Assembly (NCBI RefSeq): GCF_000246855.1
Contig: NC_016609.1
Span: 1,674,001-1,738,000 of the forward strand
Source of the DNA: Niastella koreensis GR20-10
Lineage (GTDB): Bacteria; Bacteroidota; Bacteroidia; Chitinophagales; Chitinophagaceae
DNA: 64,000 bases
Direction of reading: 5' to 3'
In this document: positions 19,825 through 39,152 of the stretch, one piece after another
Numbering within the stretch: the stretch's first letter is position 1
Layout of the letters: every line of letters starts with the position of its first letter
Translations under genes and position numbers: made by a program
The notes under the pieces: generated by a model
Databases searched by the model: none
What the model saw: only the letters and a program-made list of their open reading frames with translations
Told to the model about the DNA's origin: nothing

Positions 19825-20250
19825 ATGAAAGGGAATAGTATTTATTTAAAAGCAAAGGCGGTACATGAAAAAATGTATGAATTATCTGGTCAAATAAAAG
19901 AGGAGGAAAGGGAAATTATTTATAACGAATATTTTACTTTGATTAAAAGAGCAGCATATTTGGGTCATCCTGATGCCCAATATGATTTGGGGCAACAGTA
20001 TGAGACAATGAGCTATTTAAGTATAGAAAATCCAAAGTATAATCCAACGAAATGTATTTTTTGGTATACAAAGGCTTGTGCACAAAATCATGCTGCGGCT
20101 TGTAATAATCTCGCAACGTTTTACGAATCTGGGATAGGCTGTGAAAAAGATTTAGAAAAAGCGTTAACGTTATATAAGAAGTCCGCCGATTTGGGTGATT
20201 CGCTTGGAAAGAAAAATTATAAGATCATGAAACAGCAATTGCGATCATAG
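19825..20250 (+). CDS. Small Sel1-repeat protein
   Basis: This 141-residue protein has two Sel1-like (TPR-related) repeats: AAYLGHPDAQYDLGQQYE and AACNNLATFYESGIGCEKDLEKALTLYKKSADLGD. Sel1 proteins act as adaptor scaffolds. There is no signal peptide, so it is probably cytosolic. Codon and base use are visibly AT-richer than in the mannan locus, hinting at recent acquisition. The gene is followed by an open but ATG-less fragment (20251-20393), so it may be the intact part of a larger, decayed accessory module. No partner is evident. Confidence 0.7.
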   Translation: MKGNSIYLKAKAVHEKMYELSGQIKEEEREIIYNEYFTLIKRAAYLGHPDAQYDLGQQYETMSYLSIENPKYNPTKCIFWYTKACAQNHAAACNNLATFYESGIGCEKDLEKALTLYKKSADLGDSLGKKNYKIMKQQLRS

Positions 20251-28670: not shown

Positions 28671-30398
28671 ATGAGGACAATGCTACGCTGCAGGGAGACC
28701 TGGATGATTGCAACATTTATTCTATTGGCCAACATGGGTTTTTCGCAATTAACCCAGCAATGGTCAGCCCGGTTCAATGGTACGGGTAATGGCGCCGACC
28801 AGGCCAGATCGCTGGTGATTGACAATGATGGTAATGTGTATATAACCGGATCGGCTACAGGACCAGGGACGGGGTTGGATTACCGGACCATCAAGTATGG
28901 CCCTAACGGCCAGATAAAGTGGAAGGCCTTATGGAATGGTTCTGCCAACGGTGATGATGAAGCTTTCTCGATAGCCCTGGATGGCATGGGCAATGTTTAC
29001 GTAACCGGAAGAAGCATAGGCACTGGAACGGCCGGTTACGATATTGTAACAGTAAAATACAATTCTTCTGGTGTGCGCCAATGGTCGGCCAGGTATAATG
29101 ATCCCAATAATGGATTCGACTGGGGTAAGTCAATTGCTGCAGACAGCAAAGGCAATGTATACATAACAGGCGTGGCCGGACTGGGTGCAAATACTACATC
29201 AGACTATGTCACCATCAAGTATAATACCAACGGAACACGCCTGTGGCTGGCTAACTACTCCGGCCCGGGAAGGAACGACGAAGCCAATGCTTTAGCCTTG
29301 GATAAAGATGGCAATGTGTATGTAACCGGCAGAAGCCCGGCCGGTATTGATCTGGATGAAATGGATATGGATTATGCCACTGTTAAATATGATAATAACG
29401 GTCATCAGATCTGGGTAAGAAGGTATAATAGCCCCTATATGTATAATGAATTTGATGAAGCGCTGGATATAAAAGTGGACCCTTATGGAAATGTATATGT
29501 TACGGGCCGCAGCGCCCCTGACAACCAGGAAAGTTCCAACGACTATGCCACCGTTAAATACGATGCCGGTGGAAATCAGAAATGGGTGGCCAGGTATAAT
29601 GGCCCCGGCAATTCTACTGATGATGCGATGGCCCTGGCTGTAGACGCTTCGTTAAACGTATACGTTACTGGTTATAGCGCTGCCGGCCCCGATGAAACAA
29701 ATTTTGACTATGCCACTGTTAAGTATAATAAGAACGGACAGCAGGTTTGGGTGCGGCGATATAATGGTCCGGCTAATGTGCACGATCAGGCGACCGCCCT
29801 GGCGCTTGATAGAAACGGGAATATCTATGTAACCGGGCATAGCATGAGTACCGGCACCGGGTACGACTTTACTACTGTTAAATACAACCCGGCAGGTGAC
29901 CAGCAATCGGTGGCGCGGTATAATGGCCCTGCCAATGGCTTCGATGGCACCGCATTCTTACCTTCACACCCCATTGCGGTTGACGAGAACTGTAACGTAT
30001 ATGTAACCGGGAGGAGCGATGGAACGGGTTCCGGTTCCGATATGATAACGATAAAATATTCCCAACCGGATGCACTCATTACCGGCAGACTGGATCAGCC
30101 TTCGGTAGCAAGCAATGCAATACCTGCCAGCCTGCATGTTTTTGTGGCGCCTAACCCGGCTTCGGTTACCACTAAGATCTCTTATGAACTGCCGGTTGAA
30201 GGCAAAGTTTCAATTGCCATCTACGATATGCTGGGCAGAAGGATACAAACATTATTGGAGGCCACCAAACCGGCGGGCTTCCATTCTATAGATTTTAATG
30301 TGGCCACTATTCAAACGGGCATGTATACCTACCAGATCATGGTGAAAACAGCCAAATCATCCTGGCGTGCAACCGGAAAGATAAATGTGATAAAATAA
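28671..30398 (+). CDS. SBBP-repeat beta-propeller protein with T9SS C-terminal domain (copy 1)
   Basis: This 575-residue secreted protein has a signal peptide ending ANMGFSQ, then eight SBBP (beta-propeller) repeats of about 55 residues, each with a core like GNVYVTGRS followed by DYATVKYN and QQWVARYNGPAN. The last about 80 residues are a type IX secretion sorting domain: VAPNPASVTTKISYELP, VSIAIYDMLGRRI, AGFHSIDFNV, GMYTYQI, ending KINVIK. The protein should cross the outer membrane through T9SS and be released or anchored at the surface. Ligand unknown. A paralogue starts 28 bases after its stop, so the pair is a tandem duplication and probable operon. Confidence 0.9.
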   Translation: MRTMLRCRETWMIATFILLANMGFSQLTQQWSARFNGTGNGADQARSLVIDNDGNVYITGSATGPGTGLDYRTIKYGPNGQIKWKALWNGSANGDDEAFSIALDGMGNVYVTGRSIGTGTAGYDIVTVKYNSSGVRQWSARYNDPNNGFDWGKSIAADSKGNVYITGVAGLGANTTSDYVTIKYNTNGTRLWLANYSGPGRNDEANALALDKDGNVYVTGRSPAGIDLDEMDMDYATVKYDNNGHQIWVRRYNSPYMYNEFDEALDIKVDPYGNVYVTGRSAPDNQESSNDYATVKYDAGGNQKWVARYNGPGNSTDDAMALAVDASLNVYVTGYSAAGPDETNFDYATVKYNKNGQQVWVRRYNGPANVHDQATALALDRNGNIYVTGHSMSTGTGYDFTTVKYNPAGDQQSVARYNGPANGFDGTAFLPSHPIAVDENCNVYVTGRSDGTGSGSDMITIKYSQPDALITGRLDQPSVASNAIPASLHVFVAPNPASVTTKISYELPVEGKVSIAIYDMLGRRIQTLLEATKPAGFHSIDFNVATIQTGMYTYQIMVKTAKSSWRATGKINVIK

Positions 30399-30426: not shown

Positions 30427-32136
30427 ATGAAGACGATGACAGGCTTCAGAAGGGGCATATTTTTAGTTCATTTCTTATTGATTTCAATATGCAGCATGGC
30501 GCAGGTAAAACAGGATTGGGTAGCCCGGTATCGCACCTACAACGATAGTATTGGCGAAGAAGCGACCGCTCAGGCCATCGATGAAAAGGGAAATGTTTAT
30601 GTAGCCGGTGGCGCCGTAGGTACTGCGCCCAACAGGGATTATACTACCATAAAGTACAATACAGCCGGCGTATTACAATGGAAAGCCCGGTACAGCAGTC
30701 CTGCCGGGGGTGATAGTTACCCATCGGCTATAGCCGTTGATAAAAAAGGGAACGTTTACGTAACCGGGTATTCTGCAGGTGTTGGCAGCGGTGAAGATTA
30801 TGCCACGGTTAAATACAATGCTGCCGGGGTACAACAATGGGTAGCCAGGTATAATGGCCCCGCCGGATCGGATGATGGTGCAGCGGCCCTGCTGGTGGAT
30901 AATGATGGGAATGTGTACGTAACAGGAAGCAGTATGGGAAAAGGAACCCTTGAAGACTATGCCACTATCAAGTATGGACCTAACGGGGTAGCAAAATGGA
31001 TCAGCCGGTATAATGGCCCTGCCAATTCAACCGACTGGCCCGCGGCCCTGGTCCTTGACAGAAATGGCAATGTGCTGGTAACCGGGCAAAGTGTAGGCAA
31101 GAATTCCGGTCTCGATTACGCCACTATAAAGTACAATTCATCGGGTGTGCAAAAATGGGTGGCGAGGTTCAATGGCAAGGCGAATGATGAGGATTATGCT
31201 GCGTCCGTAGCAGTTGATAAAGGTGGTAATGTATACGTAACCGGAACAACTTACTCGGGTTACATTCCTGATGATCCCTTTGATCTGCCGTTACTGGATA
31301 TCGCTACTATTAAATACAACGCCGCCGGCGCCCAGCAATGGGTGGCCATCCACGACGAAACCGGTGGTACCGATGAGGCGCGATCAGTAAAGCTGGATAA
31401 AGACGGTAATGCGTATGTAATGGGCCGCCTGTTCAATTCCAATCAATACGTAGACGATCCTGATGTGGATTATGGCGTAATCAAGTATAATCCGGCAGGG
31501 GTTAAATTATGGGTGGCAAAGTATGGCCCGCCTGCTGATAAAGATTTTGAATGCCACGCTAATGACCAGGTAGTCGATGAAGATGGAAATGTATATGTAA
31601 CGGGACAAGATGGCGTGGAGGAGTTTGCTACGGTGAAATTTGATAAATACGGAAAACAGAAATGGGCAGTTACCTATAAAAAGGCTGTCAATCAGTACGC
31701 CATCGCGGTAGATGTGGACCATTGGGGCAATGTGTATGTTACAGGTAATGGCGATAGAAAAGACTGTCAGGGTTGTATGGATTTTGTCACTATTAAGTAT
31801 TCCCAATGTGATAAAGCTGTTAGCGCCAGAATGGGTGAGCCTGCCGAAAACCAGGAGGTTACAGGCAGGTTCAAGGTAACGGTTGCGCCTAATCCGGCTG
31901 CAGGTAGCACGAAGTTCTACTATGAAATGCCGGTTGACGGCCAGGTGTCTATCCAGGTGTTTGACGTGCTGGGCCGGCAAATTGCTACGTTGGTCAATGC
32001 CAACCAACAGGCAGGTTTACATAATACAGAATGGGACGTTTCACCACTTAAGAGCGGCATCTATATTTATCATATCGTGGTAAAATCGGGTAAAACAGTG
32101 TGGAATGAAACAGGCAGGATCAGTGTGATAAAATAA
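30427..32136 (+). CDS. SBBP-repeat beta-propeller protein with T9SS C-terminal domain (copy 2)
   Basis: This 569-residue paralogue of the preceding gene has a signal peptide (ICSMAQ), eight GNVYVTG-type repeats, and a matching T9SS tail (VAPNPAAGSTKFYYEMP, VSIQVFDVLGRQI, GIYIYHIVV, ISVIK). Repeats 5 and 6 are longer and more diverged (for example the insert YIPDDPFDLPLLD), so the two copies are not recent identical duplicates. An intrinsic terminator begins 31 bases after the stop. The two proteins may form a surface-exposed pair; function unknown. Confidence 0.9.
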   Translation: MKTMTGFRRGIFLVHFLLISICSMAQVKQDWVARYRTYNDSIGEEATAQAIDEKGNVYVAGGAVGTAPNRDYTTIKYNTAGVLQWKARYSSPAGGDSYPSAIAVDKKGNVYVTGYSAGVGSGEDYATVKYNAAGVQQWVARYNGPAGSDDGAAALLVDNDGNVYVTGSSMGKGTLEDYATIKYGPNGVAKWISRYNGPANSTDWPAALVLDRNGNVLVTGQSVGKNSGLDYATIKYNSSGVQKWVARFNGKANDEDYAASVAVDKGGNVYVTGTTYSGYIPDDPFDLPLLDIATIKYNAAGAQQWVAIHDETGGTDEARSVKLDKDGNAYVMGRLFNSNQYVDDPDVDYGVIKYNPAGVKLWVAKYGPPADKDFECHANDQVVDEDGNVYVTGQDGVEEFATVKFDKYGKQKWAVTYKKAVNQYAIAVDVDHWGNVYVTGNGDRKDCQGCMDFVTIKYSQCDKAVSARMGEPAENQEVTGRFKVTVAPNPAAGSTKFYYEMPVDGQVSIQVFDVLGRQIATLVNANQQAGLHNTEWDVSPLKSGIYIYHIVVKSGKTVWNETGRISVIK

Positions 32137-32167
32137 AACGTTTTTTTCAGTAGGGTTAGAACAGGCA

Positions 32168-32200
32168 AGGCTCTGCCTTTATTAAGGCGGGGCCTTTTTT
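32168..32200 (+). terminator. Intrinsic terminator after the SBBP pair
   Basis: AGGCTCTGCCTT (32168-32179) pairs with AAGGCGGGGCCT (32184-32195), including two G-T pairs, with a 4-base loop and a run of T to 32200. Confidence 0.88.
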
Positions 32201-32219
32201 AAATCATTATCCCCACTAA

Positions 32220-32250
32220 TTTGGTGGACTAAATGATTTTGTTATATTTG
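32220..32250 (+). promoter_or_regulatory. Consensus promoter of the leader ORF - susCD - sulfatase operon
   Basis: TTTG (32220-32223), a 19-base spacer, and TATATTTG (32243-32250) match TTTG-N19-TAnnTTTG exactly. The predicted start near 32257 lies about 27 bases before the ATG of the poly-cysteine leader ORF and about 367 bases before susC, so transcription would cover the whole leader. Confidence 0.85.
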
Positions 32251-32283
32251 TACTCAGGAAATGTTTAAACCAATGCTATTGTT

Positions 32284-32382
32284 ATGGGAGTAACCTCGTA
32301 CAATATAATCTCTTTACAGCCTGCCGCCCCGGCGGGATACTACAGCATAATTCTTTTGAAAGAGTGCTGCTGTTGTTGTTAG
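32284..32382 (+). CDS. Poly-cysteine leader peptide (32 codons), putative attenuator
   Basis: ATG at 32284 opens a 32-residue ORF that reads MGVTSYNIISLQ, then PAAPAGYY, and ends KECCCCC followed by TAG at 32380-32382. The five final sense codons are TGC TGC TGT TGT TGT. It begins about 27 bases after a consensus promoter and about 240 bases upstream of the susC start. The position, size and Cys run are those of an amino-acid attenuator leader. Poly-Cys short ORFs that act as cysteine-responsive attenuators are described in mycobacteria; I know of none established in Bacteroidota. The downstream operon carries a sulfatase, which ties the sensed amino acid to sulfur supply. Function is inference; the ORF and promoter are directly visible. 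Confidence 0.75.
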   Translation: MGVTSYNIISLQPAAPAGYYSIILLKECCCCC

Positions 32383-32519
32383 CATCGTCACTTCTCTGAT
32401 AATTAAATATACTACCGTACAGATTGCCTGTCAGCATCGCTGAACCCTACCGCAACGGATGAATGAATAGCTGTGCTTTATAATTAACAATTTAAATCAG
32501 TCAGATAGAGAATAAAAAA

Positions 32520-32593
32520 CCGGTAAGAAGAATTTCCTACCGGCGCTGGGATGAGATCAGTCCGTAACGCCAATCACTTACTGGTCTTCATCC
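32520..32593 (+). promoter_or_regulatory. Two hairpins in the leader between the poly-Cys ORF and susC
   Basis: Hairpin A pairs CCGGTA (32520-32525) with TACCGG (32538-32543). Hairpin B pairs GGATGAGATCAG (32549-32560) with CTGGTCTTCATCC (32581-32593), 12 pairs with one bulge. Neither is followed by a U run, so they are not plain intrinsic terminators; B ends 30 bases before the susC ATG and could affect translation or Rho access. Bases 32383-32519 show nothing else I can name beyond a repeated AGCATCG. Confidence 0.5.
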
Positions 32594-32623
32594 TGATTAC
32601 ATTAACGATAAAACATCATTAAC

Positions 32624-35600
32624 ATGAATCTGTTTCAAAGGTATAAAAAATACCTTGCGGGCAAACTATTGCTCTTTCTTTCCCTGCTCTTTTCTACGTT
32701 CTTATCCATTGCCCAAAACAACAATGTGCAGTTGATAGGCAAGGTGGTTGACGACAGAACAAAAGAACCGCTGGTGGGCGCTGTAGTGCATATTAAAGGC
32801 ACCACGCACCATGTGGTGGCCGACGAAGAAGGCGCCTTCACTTTTATTACCGGTCAAAAAGTTCCCGTTGTTTATGAGGTAAGCCATGTTGGGTACGAGA
32901 CCCGCGAAATAACGGTAAGTGATTACAAACCTATTGACATCCGGTTGAAACAGGGGAATGCACAGTTGAGCGATGTAGTGGTGGTTGGTTATGGTACACA
33001 ACGAAGAAGTGATGTGTCAGGCGCCGTAACAACCGTTCCCAAAAACCTGCTTACGCAACCTGCTACTTCTTTCGATAACCTGCTGCAGGGCGCCGTACCG
33101 GGCGTGGCGGTGACCCAGAGTTCGGCCCAGCCCGGCAGTACTGCGTCCATAAGAGTGCGAGGGGGTAATTCTATCTCTTTCGGGAACGAACCCTTGTATG
33201 TGATCGATGGGTTTATCATCTATAATAATAACAGCTTTACCAATTCAGGCGCGTCCAACGGTTCCAGTGTGAATGCGCTGGCAACCATTAACCCAAGTGA
33301 TATTGAATCGATCGAGATCCTGAAAGATGCTTCGGCTACTGCCATCTATGGGTCACGCGGCGCCAATGGGGTAGTGGTGATCACTACCCGCCGGGGTAAA
33401 AAGGGTACCGATGAATTTAACTACAGTGGATATTTTGGTAAACAACAGGTATCGAAAAAGCTCGACCTGTTAAATGCATCGCAATGGGCGGCATTGGTAA
33501 ACGATATCAATTACAGTGATGGCAAGGCTGCCACCTTCAGCGATTCGGCTATTGCTGCCTTGGGCAGTGGGAGCGACTGGCAAAGCTCGGCGCTCAGGGA
33601 TGCGCCGGTTCAAAATCATGAATTATCGCTTGCTGGTGGTGATGACAAGTCACGGTATTTGATTTCAGGTAATTACTTTAATCAGCAGGGAACGGTGTTG
33701 AATACCGGGTTCAAAAGATATTCGGCCCGCCTCAACTATGAACGAAATGTGACCGACCGGTTTAAGGTAGCTGCCAACATTTTCGGCAGCCGGTCACTGG
33801 AAGATAAATTGACCGGAAGCCCCTTTAACAGTATTAATTTCAGCGGCGCGTATCCCAGCCTGGTACAGTCATCGCCGGTAGCGCTGATAAAAAACGGGGA
33901 CGGTACGTATAATACTACCAGTCCGTATACCTCGCAGCCAACCAACCCGTTGCTGGATATAATAGCTACCACCAACCGCAGTTATCTTACCCGGGTAATG
34001 GGAAGCGCTTCGGCCGAATATAAATTATGGAAGGAACTGGTGCTGAAAGTTACCGGTGGGGTTGATCTCATAAACACCAAGCAGAATTATTATGCGCCTT
34101 CCTATACCAATTCACCGGCTGGTTCTTCCAACGGCTATACCATGGGTGGGTATGGTTCTGTAGGTACGGTTGCAGCTGTTAGCTGGTTGAATGAGAACAC
34201 GCTTACCTGGGACCATACCTGGCAGAATACGCATTTTGTAAATTTATTGGCTGGGTATACCACGCAATTCTCAAAAGATGAATCTGCCGTGGCCAGCTCG
34301 CAGAAATTTCCAAATGATCTTACAACCTATAATAATCTGTCGTATGCCGGCTCAGCGGTATTGTCGTTGTCTGATGCTCACCAGTCAACTTTAAATTCCT
34401 ATCTGGCCAGGGTGAATTATTCCTACCTGCATAAGTATAACATCACCTTGTCTGAACGCGCCGATGGTTCTTCGCGATTAGGGGCGAACAACAAATGGGG
34501 GTATTTTCCTTCTATAGGTTTATCATGGAATATTAATAAAGAAGATTTCTTTCAACGGTTCGACCGGTATGTAAGCAATCTGAAATTACGGTTAACTGCC
34601 GGCAAAACCGGTAATTCAGAAGTGCCGCCTTACAGTTCCCTGGCTGCACTGGCGCCTACCAATTATTATTTCAACAGTACGCTGGTAACAGGCATATCGC
34701 CGGTGCAACTGGCTAACCCCAACCTGAAATGGGAAACTACCACCCAATACAATGCGGGTGTTGATGTGGGTTTATTTAATGGCCGCATCAACCTCACCTT
34801 TGATGCTTATTATAAAAAGACTTCCGATCTGTTGTTGTATGTACCCTTCCCCTTGTATACAGGATATACCAGCCAGTTGGAGAATGTGGGCAGTGTGGAA
34901 AATAAAGGGGTTGAACTGGGACTGAGTACAGAAAATGTAAAAAGCAAAAACTTCAACTGGCGGTCGACCTTTTTAATAGCAGCCAACAGAAATAAAGTCT
35001 TAAGTCTGGGCGCCAGCAGCAGTTATTTCCCCGTGGCGCCAACCGGACAGGTGTCGCCGGTGATAGTACAGGTAGGGTTGCCCGTGGGTACTTTCTGGGG
35101 CTATTCAACCAATGGGCTGTTAACTGCTGAAGACCTGTCGAAGGGAGCTCCTGTATTAGCGGGTGTAGCGCAAAAGGTAGGCGATACAAAGTATGTTGAC
35201 TATACCGGCGATGGCGCCGTTACCACCGCTGATAAACACAACCTGGGAAGTGCGCAGCCGAAATTCACGGCCAGCTTTTCAAACAATATTTCCTGGAAGC
35301 ATTTTGACCTGTCATTTTTTATCCAGGGCTCTTATGGCAACAAATTGTTTAACCTGTTACAACAAAAGCTGGAGATCCCAACTATTTCATTAAACGCTTC
35401 GGCTGCCCTGTTAAACAGGTACAGTGCCACCAACCCCAATGGTACCGTTGCCCGGGCCACCAATTCACCGGTACCGCAGGTTACAGACCGCTATATCGAA
35501 GACGGGTCGTATGCAAAGCTGAAGAACATAACATTGGGATATAATTTCTCTTCGACGATCCTTTCAAAGATCCGCGCCAAACAGTTACGGGTATATGTTT

Positions 35601-35749
35601 CTGCCCAGAACCTGCTTACGCTTACACACTACACCGGGTACAATCCCGAGGTGAATTTTTACGACAATGACAATACCAAACAGGGAATAGATTATGGTAT
35701 TTATCCTGCTACCCGCACATTTCTGGCCGGGGTGAATATTACATTTTAA
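32624..35749 (+). CDS. SusC/RagA-family TonB-linked receptor (sulfatase locus)
   Basis: This 1041-residue outer-membrane transporter has a signal peptide (LLFLSLLFSTFLSIAQ), a carboxypeptidase-regulatory-like domain (VQLIGKVVDDRTKEPLVGAVV), the linker SDVVVVGYGTQRRSDVSGAV, and the plug motif IESIEILKDASATAIYGSRGANGVVVITTRRG. The barrel ends with YAKLKNITLGYNF, VYVSAQNLLTLTHYTGYNPEV and a final FLAGVNITF. No STN domain, so sigma-factor signalling is not expected; control is more likely through the leader upstream. It is followed after 20 bases by its susD. With the sulfatase behind, it probably imports a sulfated ligand. Confidence 0.95.
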   Translation: MNLFQRYKKYLAGKLLLFLSLLFSTFLSIAQNNNVQLIGKVVDDRTKEPLVGAVVHIKGTTHHVVADEEGAFTFITGQKVPVVYEVSHVGYETREITVSDYKPIDIRLKQGNAQLSDVVVVGYGTQRRSDVSGAVTTVPKNLLTQPATSFDNLLQGAVPGVAVTQSSAQPGSTASIRVRGGNSISFGNEPLYVIDGFIIYNNNSFTNSGASNGSSVNALATINPSDIESIEILKDASATAIYGSRGANGVVVITTRRGKKGTDEFNYSGYFGKQQVSKKLDLLNASQWAALVNDINYSDGKAATFSDSAIAALGSGSDWQSSALRDAPVQNHELSLAGGDDKSRYLISGNYFNQQGTVLNTGFKRYSARLNYERNVTDRFKVAANIFGSRSLEDKLTGSPFNSINFSGAYPSLVQSSPVALIKNGDGTYNTTSPYTSQPTNPLLDIIATTNRSYLTRVMGSASAEYKLWKELVLKVTGGVDLINTKQNYYAPSYTNSPAGSSNGYTMGGYGSVGTVAAVSWLNENTLTWDHTWQNTHFVNLLAGYTTQFSKDESAVASSQKFPNDLTTYNNLSYAGSAVLSLSDAHQSTLNSYLARVNYSYLHKYNITLSERADGSSRLGANNKWGYFPSIGLSWNINKEDFFQRFDRYVSNLKLRLTAGKTGNSEVPPYSSLAALAPTNYYFNSTLVTGISPVQLANPNLKWETTTQYNAGVDVGLFNGRINLTFDAYYKKTSDLLLYVPFPLYTGYTSQLENVGSVENKGVELGLSTENVKSKNFNWRSTFLIAANRNKVLSLGASSSYFPVAPTGQVSPVIVQVGLPVGTFWGYSTNGLLTAEDLSKGAPVLAGVAQKVGDTKYVDYTGDGAVTTADKHNLGSAQPKFTASFSNNISWKHFDLSFFIQGSYGNKLFNLLQQKLEIPTISLNASAALLNRYSATNPNGTVARATNSPVPQVTDRYIEDGSYAKLKNITLGYNFSSTILSKIRAKQLRVYVSAQNLLTLTHYTGYNPEVNFYDNDNTKQGIDYGIYPATRTFLAGVNITF

Positions 35750-35769: not shown

Positions 35770-37251
35770 ATGAAACGAATCATATCTATATCGGTTGTTG
35801 CGGGCATTTTGTTTTCCTGCAACAAGCTCACGGAAGACCCGGCTTCCGTAACAGTGGCTGGTCAGTTTTATAAAACATCTGCAGATGCTATTGCAGCCGT
35901 TAGTGCGGTGTACAGTACCCTGAACAGCGATCCCGCAGGCGATTTCCCGATCTATGGCCGAAATCTGAATCTGCTTATCTGCAATGGTGGTGATGAAATG
36001 GTGTTCAGTCCGTCCAATACCAATCCGGATGTGCGGGCATTGGGAACGGCTACGTATGTACCCGTGAATGACCGCATTCGTAAGATCTGGCAGCAGCATT
36101 ATTATGGCATCAGCCGGGCCAATGTGGCCATCGACAATATAGCACCAATGGCTATCGATACCACGGTGCGAGAACGCCTGGTGCGCGAAAGCAAATTTAT
36201 CAGGGCCCTCCTGTATTTTAACCTCGTGCGGTTGTTTGGCGATGTACCGCTCGTTCTGCATGATCCCACTTCTGTGGATGTAAACAGTTTGAAGACCGGC
36301 AGAACGTCGAAAGACAGTATTTATCAGCAAATCATTGCAGATCTGACAGCAGGATTCAATCTGCCCAAATCGTATTCGGGTGCAGACATCGGAAGAGCTA
36401 CCAGTGGTGCGGCGCATGCCTTACTGGCAAAAGTATATGTTACCAAAAGGGATTGGCCCAATGCCCTGGTTGAATTACAAAAAGTAGTAACTGCAGGAAC
36501 GTTTACAAACGCCACCGGTGTGTATGGATATAACCTGTTTACCAATTTTAAAGACGCGTTTCAAAAAGCTACCAAGAACGGGATAGAACACCTTTTTTCT
36601 GTACAGTTTGAAACCAACCTGGGTGCCAGAAACAGTCAGCAATTCATAAGCTCTGGCGCATTTAGTTCATTTAACCCGGCGGTTTATGCCGGTGATATTC
36701 CGGCCGACAGTTCTATTTACCAGCTCTTCGATGCCAGTGATGCACGGCGGGCGGTTACTTTTTTCACTACGTTGGTGAATTCCTCAACCGGCCAAACAGT
36801 AAATTTCGGCGCCCCCCGCTGGAACAAGTTTATCGATTACAGCATCTCGCCACTTTCGAGCCAGGCGCAAAGCGGGTTGAACTTTCCTGTGATCCGTTAT
36901 GCCGATGTGTTGCTGTTGTATGCCGAAACGTTGAACGAACTCAATGGTGGCCCAACCCCAGATGCCTACAGCGCCATTAATAAAGTGAGAACAAGAGCCG
37001 GTATTGCCAATCTTACCACCGCTCTACCGCAGGCTGCATTCCGGGATTCTGTGTTTTTAGAAAGAAGAAAAGAGTTTATGCTGGAGAGCAACCGCTGGTT
37101 CGATCTGTCGAGAAGAGGCGGCAGCTATTTGTATGATGCGCTGAAAAAGTTTCCGGCCAAAACCGGCGCGGCGCTTAGAGACACCTTGTATCCGATTCCA
37201 CAAGTGGAGATTGACCTGGCAGGTTTATCCCAGAACCCAGGCTGGCAATAA
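35770..37251 (+). CDS. SusD/RagB-family lipoprotein (sulfatase locus)
   Basis: The 493-residue lipoprotein starts MKRIISISVVAGILFSCNK (lipidated Cys at about 17). SusD hallmarks are RESKFIRALLYFNLVRLFGDVPL (about 138-160), GAAHALLAKVYVTKRDWPNAL (about 215-235), VIRYADVLLLYAETLNELNG (about 373-392), ERRKEFMLESNRWFDLSRRG (about 430-450) and the end LYPIPQVEIDLAG...NPGW. It forms the lid of the upstream SusC. The ligand is unknown; the sulfatase that follows after 38 bases suggests a sulfate ester. Confidence 0.95.
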   Translation: MKRIISISVVAGILFSCNKLTEDPASVTVAGQFYKTSADAIAAVSAVYSTLNSDPAGDFPIYGRNLNLLICNGGDEMVFSPSNTNPDVRALGTATYVPVNDRIRKIWQQHYYGISRANVAIDNIAPMAIDTTVRERLVRESKFIRALLYFNLVRLFGDVPLVLHDPTSVDVNSLKTGRTSKDSIYQQIIADLTAGFNLPKSYSGADIGRATSGAAHALLAKVYVTKRDWPNALVELQKVVTAGTFTNATGVYGYNLFTNFKDAFQKATKNGIEHLFSVQFETNLGARNSQQFISSGAFSSFNPAVYAGDIPADSSIYQLFDASDARRAVTFFTTLVNSSTGQTVNFGAPRWNKFIDYSISPLSSQAQSGLNFPVIRYADVLLLYAETLNELNGGPTPDAYSAINKVRTRAGIANLTTALPQAAFRDSVFLERRKEFMLESNRWFDLSRRGGSYLYDALKKFPAKTGAALRDTLYPIPQVEIDLAGLSQNPGWQ

Positions 37252-37289: not shown

Positions 37290-39152
37290 ATGCATCTTCA
37301 GAAAATCAACGGGGTAACCAAAAAGGTGTTGGCCTCCTCCATGATAGCAGGGCTTGCTGCGCTGTCGTTGGATGGTAAAGCGCAAACAACTTCCCAACCT
37401 TACCAGGGCGTAGTGGGTAAAACCTATGCCGATTCAAAAGAATGGTGGCAGCCGGCGGTGAAAGCGCCAGCCGGTGCTCCTAATATTGTCTGGATCCTGT
37501 TGGACGATGTAGGCTTTGGCGCTTCCAGCGCTTTTGGCGGCCTGATCCCCACGCCTACATTCGATAGTTTGGCCAACCAGGGTTTGCGCTATACCAATTT
37601 TCACACCGCCGCCATTTGCGCGCCAACCCGCGCCGCGTTATTAACCGGCCGCAACCAGCACTATGTACATATGGGCGGATTTGCCCACACGGCATTGTCG
37701 GCCGGATTCCCCGGCTGGGATGGACGCATACCTGCCGATAAAGGGACCGTTGCGGAAGTACTGCGCGAAAGCGGTTATAACACGTTTGCCGTTGGTAAAT
37801 GGGGCGTAACGCCCGATGACGACGCTACTGATGCCGGTCCGTTCGACCGCTGGCCAACCGGTAAAGGGTTCGATCATTTTTATGGTTTCCTGGGTTCGCA
37901 AACCGATCAGTACAAACCCGACCTGGTGGAAGATAACGCGCATATTACGCCCGATGGCAGAAACCTGAATGAGAGCATTACGGATAAAGCCATCAGTTAT
38001 ATTTCAAAACAAAAAACTGCAGCACCCAATAAACCTTTCTTCCTGTATTATGCGCCCGGCGCCACGCATGCACCGCACCAGGTGCCTGCATCCTGGGCCA
38101 ACATTTACAAAGGGAAATTTGACGAAGGCTGGGATGTATATCGTGACAAGGTGATCGCTAACCAGAAAAAGCTGGGCGTGATCCCTGCCAATGCGCAATT
38201 ACCTGCCCGCAACGAATACATAAAAGCCTGGAATACCTTAACCCCTGATCAGAAAAAAGTATATGCCCGTTTTATGGAAGTATACGCGGCGTACCTCACG
38301 TACATCGATGCGCAGGTGGGCCGTATTGTGAATCATCTGAAAGAGATAAAACAACTGGACAATACCTTGTTCTTTGTAATTATTGGCGACAATGGCGCCA
38401 GCAAGGAAGGTACCTTCCAGGGCGTGCTTAACCGGGGACCGCTGAGTGGCAAGGTATCTGATGAAGAACAGTTTAAAAGCAACCTGGAAAAAATTGGTGA
38501 AATTGGTACGCCTTCAGGTTCTAACACCAATTATCCGCTTGGCTGGGCGCAGGCCACCAATACACCATTTAAATTCTGGAAACAGGATGCCAATGCTGAA
38601 GGTGGTACGCACAATCCGTTGATCATTTTTTATCCCAGGGGCATAAAAGATAAAGGCGGCATCAGGAATCAATACGGCCATGTAGTGGACATTCTGCCCA
38701 CCACCCTGGAATTTGCAGGGCTTACCTTGCCAACACAGATCAAAGGCATTAAACAGGATACGCTGCAAGGCACTTCCTTGTATTACTCACTGGATAATGC
38801 AACCGCCGCCAGCCGCCATACCGAACAGTATTATTATATTTTCGGTTCCCGCGCTATTTATAAAGATGGCTGGAAGGCTGCTGCTGCGCATCACCCTGAT
38901 TATATCGACCTGAATCTGTTACCCGGTAAAGATTCCGTTGGCCATAATTTCGACAAAGATGTATGGGAACTGTACAACCTGAATGAAGATTTTAACGAAC
39001 GCACCGACCTGGCTAAGAAATATCCTGAGAAGTTAAAAGAGCTGCAGGGGCTTTTTGATGTAACGGCCAAGAAGTATAATATCTATCCGTTGATCGATTG
39101 GGCAGATGTGTGGGCGAGGAGGGTTCAGGGGGCGAATGCTTCGAAGAAGTAA
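37290..39152 (+). CDS. Arylsulfatase-type sulfatase (S1 family)
   Basis: This 620-residue exported sulfatase has an N-terminal signal region ending DGKAQ. It shows the metal pair LLDDVGFGASS (Asp72, Asp73) and the sulfatase signature CAPTRAALLTGR, whose Cys110 must be converted to formylglycine by a maturase not in this window. Other family marks are FAVGKWGVTPDD (Lys in GKW), FFLYYAPGATHAPHQVP (His), and VIIGDNGASKEG (Asp-Asn). The long middle, with RYMEVYAAYLTYIDAQVGRI-like helices, resembles Pseudomonas AtsA-type arylsulfatases (subfamily call is inference). It releases sulfate from sulfate esters in the periplasm. Last gene of the poly-Cys-leader operon; a bidirectional terminator lies about 96 bases on. 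Confidence 0.93.
   Translation: MHLQKINGVTKKVLASSMIAGLAALSLDGKAQTTSQPYQGVVGKTYADSKEWWQPAVKAPAGAPNIVWILLDDVGFGASSAFGGLIPTPTFDSLANQGLRYTNFHTAAICAPTRAALLTGRNQHYVHMGGFAHTALSAGFPGWDGRIPADKGTVAEVLRESGYNTFAVGKWGVTPDDDATDAGPFDRWPTGKGFDHFYGFLGSQTDQYKPDLVEDNAHITPDGRNLNESITDKAISYISKQKTAAPNKPFFLYYAPGATHAPHQVPASWANIYKGKFDEGWDVYRDKVIANQKKLGVIPANAQLPARNEYIKAWNTLTPDQKKVYARFMEVYAAYLTYIDAQVGRIVNHLKEIKQLDNTLFFVIIGDNGASKEGTFQGVLNRGPLSGKVSDEEQFKSNLEKIGEIGTPSGSNTNYPLGWAQATNTPFKFWKQDANAEGGTHNPLIIFYPRGIKDKGGIRNQYGHVVDILPTTLEFAGLTLPTQIKGIKQDTLQGTSLYYSLDNATAASRHTEQYYYIFGSRAIYKDGWKAAAAHHPDYIDLNLLPGKDSVGHNFDKDVWELYNLNEDFNERTDLAKKYPEKLKELQGLFDVTAKKYNIYPLIDWADVWARRVQGANASKK

Follow-up and report, generated by a model that had tools for sequence, protein, structure and literature searches.

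What does a short ORF that ends in an unbroken run of cysteine codons do in front of an operon for a SusCD receptor and a sulfatase? The original prediction for this locus, which lies in the 64,000-nucleotide stretch of the Niastella koreensis GR20-10 genome analysed here (the window), had described a 32-codon ORF with five Cys codons followed by a stop, just behind a TTTG-N19-TATATTTG promoter and about 240 bases ahead of a susC-susD-sulfatase operon. Sequence and translation confirmed the ORF, the promoter pattern was recovered at 32220-32250, the distance from the leader stop to the susC ATG was measured as 241 nt, and Pfam identified all three genes of the operon. Our best reading, drawn from comparison of sequences, is that the window leader belongs to a set found in the Chitinophagaceae before cysH, cysS and SusCD-sulfatase operons. 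The ORF itself is very probably a cysteine-responsive ribosome-stalling leader, the sensor of an attenuator.

The leader ORF and the operon behind it

The leader region and operon contain the following features.
32213-32232, minus strand: putative operator TTAGTCCACCAAATTAGTGG, matching the pattern TTAGTCYACYNNNTNRGTRG and overlapping the -33 element
32220-32250, plus strand: predicted Bacteroidota-type promoter, TTTG-N19-TATATTTG (pattern match)
32284-32382, plus strand: leader ORF, 32 codons, ending in CCCCC and a stop, translated as MGVTSYNIISLQPAAPAGYYSIILLKECCCCC
32365-32379, plus strand: five Cys codons, TGC TGC TGT TGT TGT, the presumed stall site at low Cys-tRNA
32380-32382, plus strand: leader stop codon, TAG
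32624-35749, plus strand: susC (TonB-dependent receptor), 1041 amino acids, 0 Cys, 3 Met (Pfam)
35770-37251, plus strand: susD, 493 amino acids, 2 Cys, 4 Met (Pfam)
37290-39152, plus strand: sulfatase, 620 amino acids, PF00884 (Pfam)

The window leader thus has its Cys codons contiguous and close to the stop of a short ORF, as poly-Cys attenuators do. Between this ORF and its orthologue in a second genome (G005) there are 3, 4 and 13 base changes at codon positions 1, 2 and 3, stop codon included, a coding-like pattern with 13 of the 20 changes at third positions, and a single complete Cys codon accounts for the only difference in length. Of the window's ATG ORFs of 8-70 codons that have three or more Cys among their final ten, two are intergenic and four lie inside genes; the second intergenic one (20052-20105) has three scattered Cys. 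The TTTG-N19-TAnnTTTG pattern, which follows the Bacteroidota-type promoter consensus, matches once in the window, and because chance would give 0.49 matches per window it weighs little by itself. Both promoter boxes are retained in the G005 orthologue. With 33 nt between the -7 box and the ATG, the leader does not have a leaderless start.

The only Cys of the sulfatase is that of its C-x-P-x-R motif, present in one copy as CAPTR. No glycoside hydrolase was seen among nine neighbouring proteins scanned, which would fit the scavenging of sulfur over carbon. Just upstream of the operon, 28671-30398 and 30427-32136 encode two SBBP beta-propeller proteins with Por secretion-system C-terminal sorting domains.

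Cysteine-rich leaders in the same genome and across the family

The window leader is not a chance ORF. A search of the whole 9.03-Mb genome for TGYTGYTGYTGYTAR gave four matches (reversed control 0), two of them out of frame inside long genes and the others being the window leader and a leader of cysH; the only other intergenic ORF in the genome with four Cys codons before TAA or TAG precedes this same gene. The cysH leader, MFRSQTIHIMYISCCNKYCCCC followed by a stop, lies 81 nt before cysH, the first gene of a sulfate-assimilation and cysteine operon. In an NCBIfam scan of seven proteins of the operon, cysH, cysD, serine acetyltransferase (cysE/epsC), cysK, cobA and cysI passed the cut-off and one protein had cysJ as its best match below the model cut-off; by eye, a presumable cysN lies between cysD and cysE and the last gene is cysG-like. 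Several Cys-rich leaders before cysteine or sulfur genes in one genome, another trait of poly-Cys attenuators, are thus found here.

All 69 cysH genes found in 107 genomes of the family, each at least 90% complete, were searched for a leader, defined as an ORF that starts with ATG, is 6-60 codons long, includes three or more Cys among its final ten codons and ends at most 420 nt upstream. Leaders were present at 33 of the 69, against 1.6 (maximum 7) in dinucleotide-type shuffles and one on the reverse strand. With Leu as the control residue the count was 20 at the three-residue threshold, and at four or more residues in the last ten codons it was 28 for Cys versus 7 for Leu. The 30 most similar cysH loci include 23 with a leader, while 36 of the 69 genes, many of them operon-internal, have none inside the limits used. 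Later tests left out L278 and L304, two of the 33 that appear to be spurious. In the remaining 31 the last Cys is adjacent to the stop in 21, one codon off in seven and two codons off in three; the peptides are 13 to 36 residues long, some with extra Cys ahead of the final run. Six same-genus leaders of equal length vary at 6, 3 and 9 positions of codon positions 1, 2 and 3, with four codons varying synonymously only and six not.

The gene cysS is present in 107 of 107 family genomes. Seventeen of the 30 best cysS loci carry a leader, 11-16 residues long in 15 of the 17, a count which at the three-residue threshold is hardly above the Leu control (15; reverse strand 3). When 20 hand-picked loci are added to the 30 best, 21 of the 50 have a leader within 160 nt and 29 do not; additional to the 21, a Cys-rich ORF lies 283 nt before cysS at L346. 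The cysS of N. koreensis GR20-10 itself has no leader within the limits used. After L342 and L351 had been dropped from the 21, 16 of the 19 remaining cysS leaders showed a -7 box at a distance of 4-10 nt from the ATG, and none was found for the other three; at this spacing the cysS leaders are nearly leaderless. By eye, a second TAnnTTTG box resembling a basal promoter often lies between the Cys leader and cysS (L307-L336).

A search of 59 genomes for SusC homologues (E 1e-200) yielded 11 SusC genes in nine genomes. The six with at least 47% identity (window, G005, G015, G002, G008 and G024) all have both a sulfatase and a Cys-rich leader, again defined by three or more Cys among the final ten codons, versus none of the five at 40-42% identity in the stretches read (Fisher 0.002); the homologues are related, so the six operons are not six independent events. 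The original prediction had named lack of conservation of the Cys run before related operons as a result that would refute it, and the outcome was the opposite. A Cys run or a Cys-rich end is conserved before related susC-sulfatase operons, cysH and cysS, and the rest of the peptide changes; across SusC operons the peptides are almost wholly different, with ends such as NMADSCCC, SSFRCCC and SYRSFCCCCC directly before the stop. A seventh operon (G280), found via the poly-Cys pattern and hence not independent, consists of a leader, susC (54%), susD, a fatty-acid-hydroxylase-like gene and two sulfatase homologues, and another locus (L259) has a leader and susCD with no sulfatase. Left out of the counts for the 40-42% set were a Cys-rich short ORF inside another gene about 1 kb upstream (L190) and, by eye, a sulfatase-like fragment upstream of susC at the stretch edge (L188). 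The G005 orthologue of susC (G005:C26, L186 5813-8973) is divided between two frames that overlap, owing either to a frameshift or to an error of assembly.

Sulfur-sparing proteins made under sulfur shortage are known from other organisms. Cys and Met together account for 0.09-0.28% of SusC in six operons with leader and sulfatase, the split G005 susC being left out, versus 0.60-1.65% in eight without a detected leader. The SusC of L259, which has a leader and no sulfatase, stands at 0.68%. For SusD the values are 0.18-1.01% (n=7) versus 1.53-2.96% (n=9 others, of which L193 and L019 had the operon start outside the sequence read). The p values, 0.002 for SusC with L259 grouped with the leader genes and 0.0002 for SusD, are optimistic because the low values fall in one clade.

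The promoters of the window operon and of cysH share a 20-bp motif, identical at 14 of 20 bases. The pattern TTAGTCYACYNNNTNRGTRG was derived from these two sites, which therefore match by construction, and it has no further exact match in the 9.03-Mb genome. Six further sites appear with one mismatch, which carries little weight because a reversed control gives five at the same limit; two of the six are accompanied by a Cys-rich leader, one preceding susCD and the other a fatty-acid-hydroxylase-like gene. Half-sites of the motif, defined only after such sequences had been seen, occur before seven of eight susC leaders (letter shuffles 0.2) and 20 of 31 cysH leaders (letter shuffles 0.9), at four of 19 cysH genes without leader and at none of 19 cysS leaders, where their absence indicates that leader and promoter motif are separable. 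The cysH-like motif and the loss of Met and Cys from the operon proteins support the original reading of the locus as a response to sulfur shortage.

Other genes also follow such leaders. In 109 loci, 20 of them hand-chosen as matches ending in TAA or TAG, a search for at least four Cys codons before a stop gave 25 intergenic matches, 20 with an ATG; 15 of these 20 precede susC, cysH or cysS (six being cysH of one genus) and five precede other genes. Family scans for four-Cys and five-Cys patterns gave matches that, as read, lie mostly inside genes, and counting was for this reason done on the regions upstream of cysH and cysS. Among named Bacteroidota, 10 of the 79 cysH loci with enough upstream sequence (of 80) have a leader (reverse strand 1), including Rufibacter ruber and a Sediminibacterium MAG, and none of the 10 is among the 53 operon-internal cysH. 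A six-Cys pattern gave seven matches in 119 genomes of the class (four of Chitinophagaceae), of which four lie inside genes; of the other three, with the genes named by eye, two precede cysH in another family and one a PhyH-like gene. Also by eye, a seven-Cys leader lies after cysN and before a porin-like gene in a Mucilaginibacter MAG, and a Cys-rich leader precedes an O-acetylhomoserine-sulfhydrylase-like gene in a Chitinophagaceae MAG. Poly-Cys leaders before genes with no evident sulfur role include those of an AraC-type regulator (L029, Pfam), a glutamate-dehydrogenase-like gene (L209, by eye) and a DUF6520-like gene (L206).

Fatty-acid-hydroxylase genes (PF04116; L262 7236-8324, L184 3553-4419, L260 9379-10437) lie beside sulfatase operons in two genomes, and in the genome of the window one PF04116 gene stands alone behind its own Cys-rich leader. 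PhyH-type dioxygenase genes follow Cys-rich leaders in three genomes (L264 4459-5358, Pfam; L182 8541-9422 and L360, by eye).

From the leader to the downstream gene

We infer the following course of events. A ribosome would translate the leader ORF; with ample charged Cys-tRNA it would reach the stop and leave, and most transcripts would end, or stay unused, before susC. With scarce Cys-tRNA it would stall in the Cys run beside the stop, the SusCD receptor and the sulfatase would be made, and sulfate esters would be scavenged. The likeliest read-out would be Rho-dependent, the released ribosome exposing the C-rich tract behind the stop and the stalled one masking it, on the model of the E. 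coli tna leader. The features that bear on the read-out are these.
32383-32462, plus strand: C-rich tract behind the leader stop, candidate Rho-loading region (composition)
32549-32593, plus strand: predicted stem-loop GGATGAGATCAGT...ACTGGTCTTCATCC before susC (fold)
32519-32544, minus strand: predicted intrinsic terminator, end of a predicted antisense RNA (terminator prediction)
32636-32665, minus strand: predicted antisense promoter TTTG-N18-TACCTTTG inside susC (pattern)

Attenuation by an intrinsic terminator was rejected, no plus-strand terminator having been found between leader and susC; the only terminator-like sites on this strand within 32100-32700 are 32167-32196 and 32659-32674. 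The RNA behind the cysH leaders has few U runs of five or more and mostly weak hairpins, the strongest before cysH being -12.9 (L227) and -8.7 kcal/mol (L282). No Rfam family reached its gathering score in the window. The last 76 nt upstream of susC are identical in G005.

The 80 nt behind the window leader have a C content of 0.29 and a G content of 0.16, high for C and ordinary for G against 151 control upstream regions (C 0.192, G 0.154; leader genes not purged). Behind the 31 cysH leaders the transcript is enriched in C and depleted in G (C 0.243, G 0.115), with C minus G of 0.128 versus 0.037 in the 151 controls (p 1.9e-8), and the 19 cysH without leader have C 0.175 and G 0.175. As the Cys run abuts the stop, a stalled ribosome would be able to cover the C-rich tract. 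Run and tract together fit the pattern expected of a Rho-type leader, of which composition is not proof, and the tract could instead serve only to keep the RNA open. Rho is the favoured candidate for the read-out, which we put close to, and just short of, an even chance, an estimate lowered slightly on account of the ordinary G content of the window tract.

Translational attenuation in the mycobacterial style, with the stalled ribosome opening a fold that hides the downstream start site, seems to us less probable, at roughly one chance in three or a little under. In its favour, in 12 of the 31 leaders the modelled cysH start site was more open with a ribosome-sized block placed over the Cys codons than with one at the stop, and the reverse held in one (difference >0.05); the leader 5' UTR also pairs with its own post-stop segment to a degree reached by 5 of 300 partner swaps, in a set where at least four same-genus pairs can inflate the result. 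The effect is small, however, with a mean opening of 0.55 stalled versus 0.51 at the stop, and pairing with the cysH start shows no partner specificity, the observed value being reached in 151 of 300 swaps for the Cys codons and in 147 of 300 for the post-stop segment. For the window itself the modelled opening was 0.49 on stall and 0.50 at the stop, which gives no support for a start-site switch there. The original prediction had a stall altering either folding or Rho access; the start-codon folding switch found no support in the window, and Rho access is retained as the better fit. The last Cys codons can also form a small hairpin with the post-stop segment; it beats letter shuffles (0 of 500), is not clearly partner-specific (swaps reaching its value: 112 of 500 for cysS, 29 of 500 for cysH) and is not claimed.

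Control might instead lie mainly with a DNA-binding regulator at the promoter motif and an antisense RNA, the leader being a minor tuner, which we consider unlikely. The window has both promoter and terminator patterns for an antisense RNA that would be about 110-120 nt long and overlap the susC start, as expected of the antisense RNAs of polysaccharide utilization loci (PULs); the full antisense promoter pattern occurs in the window only, and its -7 box is kept in G005. Minus-strand terminators 101-117 nt before the susC start codon in five of eight leader-bearing susC operons, two of the five being close orthologues and the placement being given without a chance control, speak for such regulation, as does the motif in both cysH and susC promoters. 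The cysS leaders, with a half-site at none of 19, argue against it, the leader being kept there without the motif. An action of the Cys-rich peptide itself, whether in sensing thiols or metals or in arresting the ribosome upon a signal other than Cys-tRNA, appears improbable: the extra Cys ahead of the final run in some peptides would suit it, but across genera little is kept beyond the Cys-rich end, the cysH leaders range from 13 to 36 residues, and most identified targets are cysteine and sulfur genes. That the ORF is functionless is scarcely credible; a short ORF is nothing unusual and chance gives the promoter pattern about 0.5 times per window, yet cysH leaders number 33 of 69 versus 1.6 in shuffles and the changes in the leader are coding-like.

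Reading the leader as a stalling sensor, we tentatively propose, with confidence somewhat below even, a Bacteroidota operon set that would be coordinated by ribosomes and not by one protein. Poly-Cys leaders would read Cys-tRNA charging via Rho before genes for sulfate assimilation, cysS, O-acetylhomoserine-sulfhydrylase-like, SusCD-sulfatase, fatty-acid-hydroxylase-like and PhyH-type genes. The outer-membrane uptake operons, with proteins depleted of their own sulfur, would be controlled in addition through the promoter motif and antisense RNA.

Relation to known systems

If true, these leaders would form a class of cysteine-sensing translational attenuators in a phylum for which we found none reported. 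The original prediction knew of no poly-Cys leader in Bacteroidota, and our search of the openly licensed literature, which is not proof of absence, likewise found none. To our knowledge there is no earlier case of outer-membrane SusCD uptake controlled by an aminoacyl-tRNA. As the leader co-occurs here with the promoter motif and with sulfur-poor proteins, it could mark those of the many SusCD-sulfatase loci that supply sulfur instead of carbon, and the proposal predicts sulfur-regulon members including unexpected PhyH-type and fatty-acid-hydroxylase-like proteins. In tnaC-type Rho-dependent leaders, a ribosome stalled at the leader end is similarly taken to mask a Rho-loading tract; the signal here would be uncharged tRNA-Cys, whereas that of tnaC is free tryptophan.

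Within the phylum, clues to leader-peptide attenuation before amino-acid operons have been described in Flavobacterium (PMC9723704, cysteine not being named there), and short ORFs reminiscent of leader peptides in Bacteroides (PMC7366714). Antisense RNAs to susC homologues are known in Bacteroides PULs (PMC10994844); the predicted antisense RNA of the window resembles them in lying over the susC start, and differs in lying beside a leader ORF and outside Bacteroides. The cys-operon leaders predicted in Mycobacterium, Propionibacterium acnes and Bifidobacterium longum (Seliverstov et al. 2005, PMC1262725) share a Cys run near the stop, the lack of a conserved terminator hairpin and a proposed role of Rho, which its authors call a weak prediction; unlike ours, they are from Actinobacteria and lie before cys and cbs operons.

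The closest parallel is with the polycysteine leaderless short-ORF attenuators of mycobacteria (Canestrari et al. 2020, as cited in PMC9031893, PMC9094748 and PMC13236596). As described in those citing papers, they too are short ORFs with contiguous Cys codons before cysteine genes, several per genome, and act via cysteine-dependent elongation speed, the action that we propose here. In contrast to their leaderless ORFs, the window leader has its 33 nt from -7 box to ATG, the cysS leaders (4-10 nt) being nearly leaderless, and folding of the window gave no sign of start-site sequestering. The leaders described here further differ from those of mycobacteria in belonging to another phylum and in having targets that include SusCD-sulfatase uptake operons and cysS.
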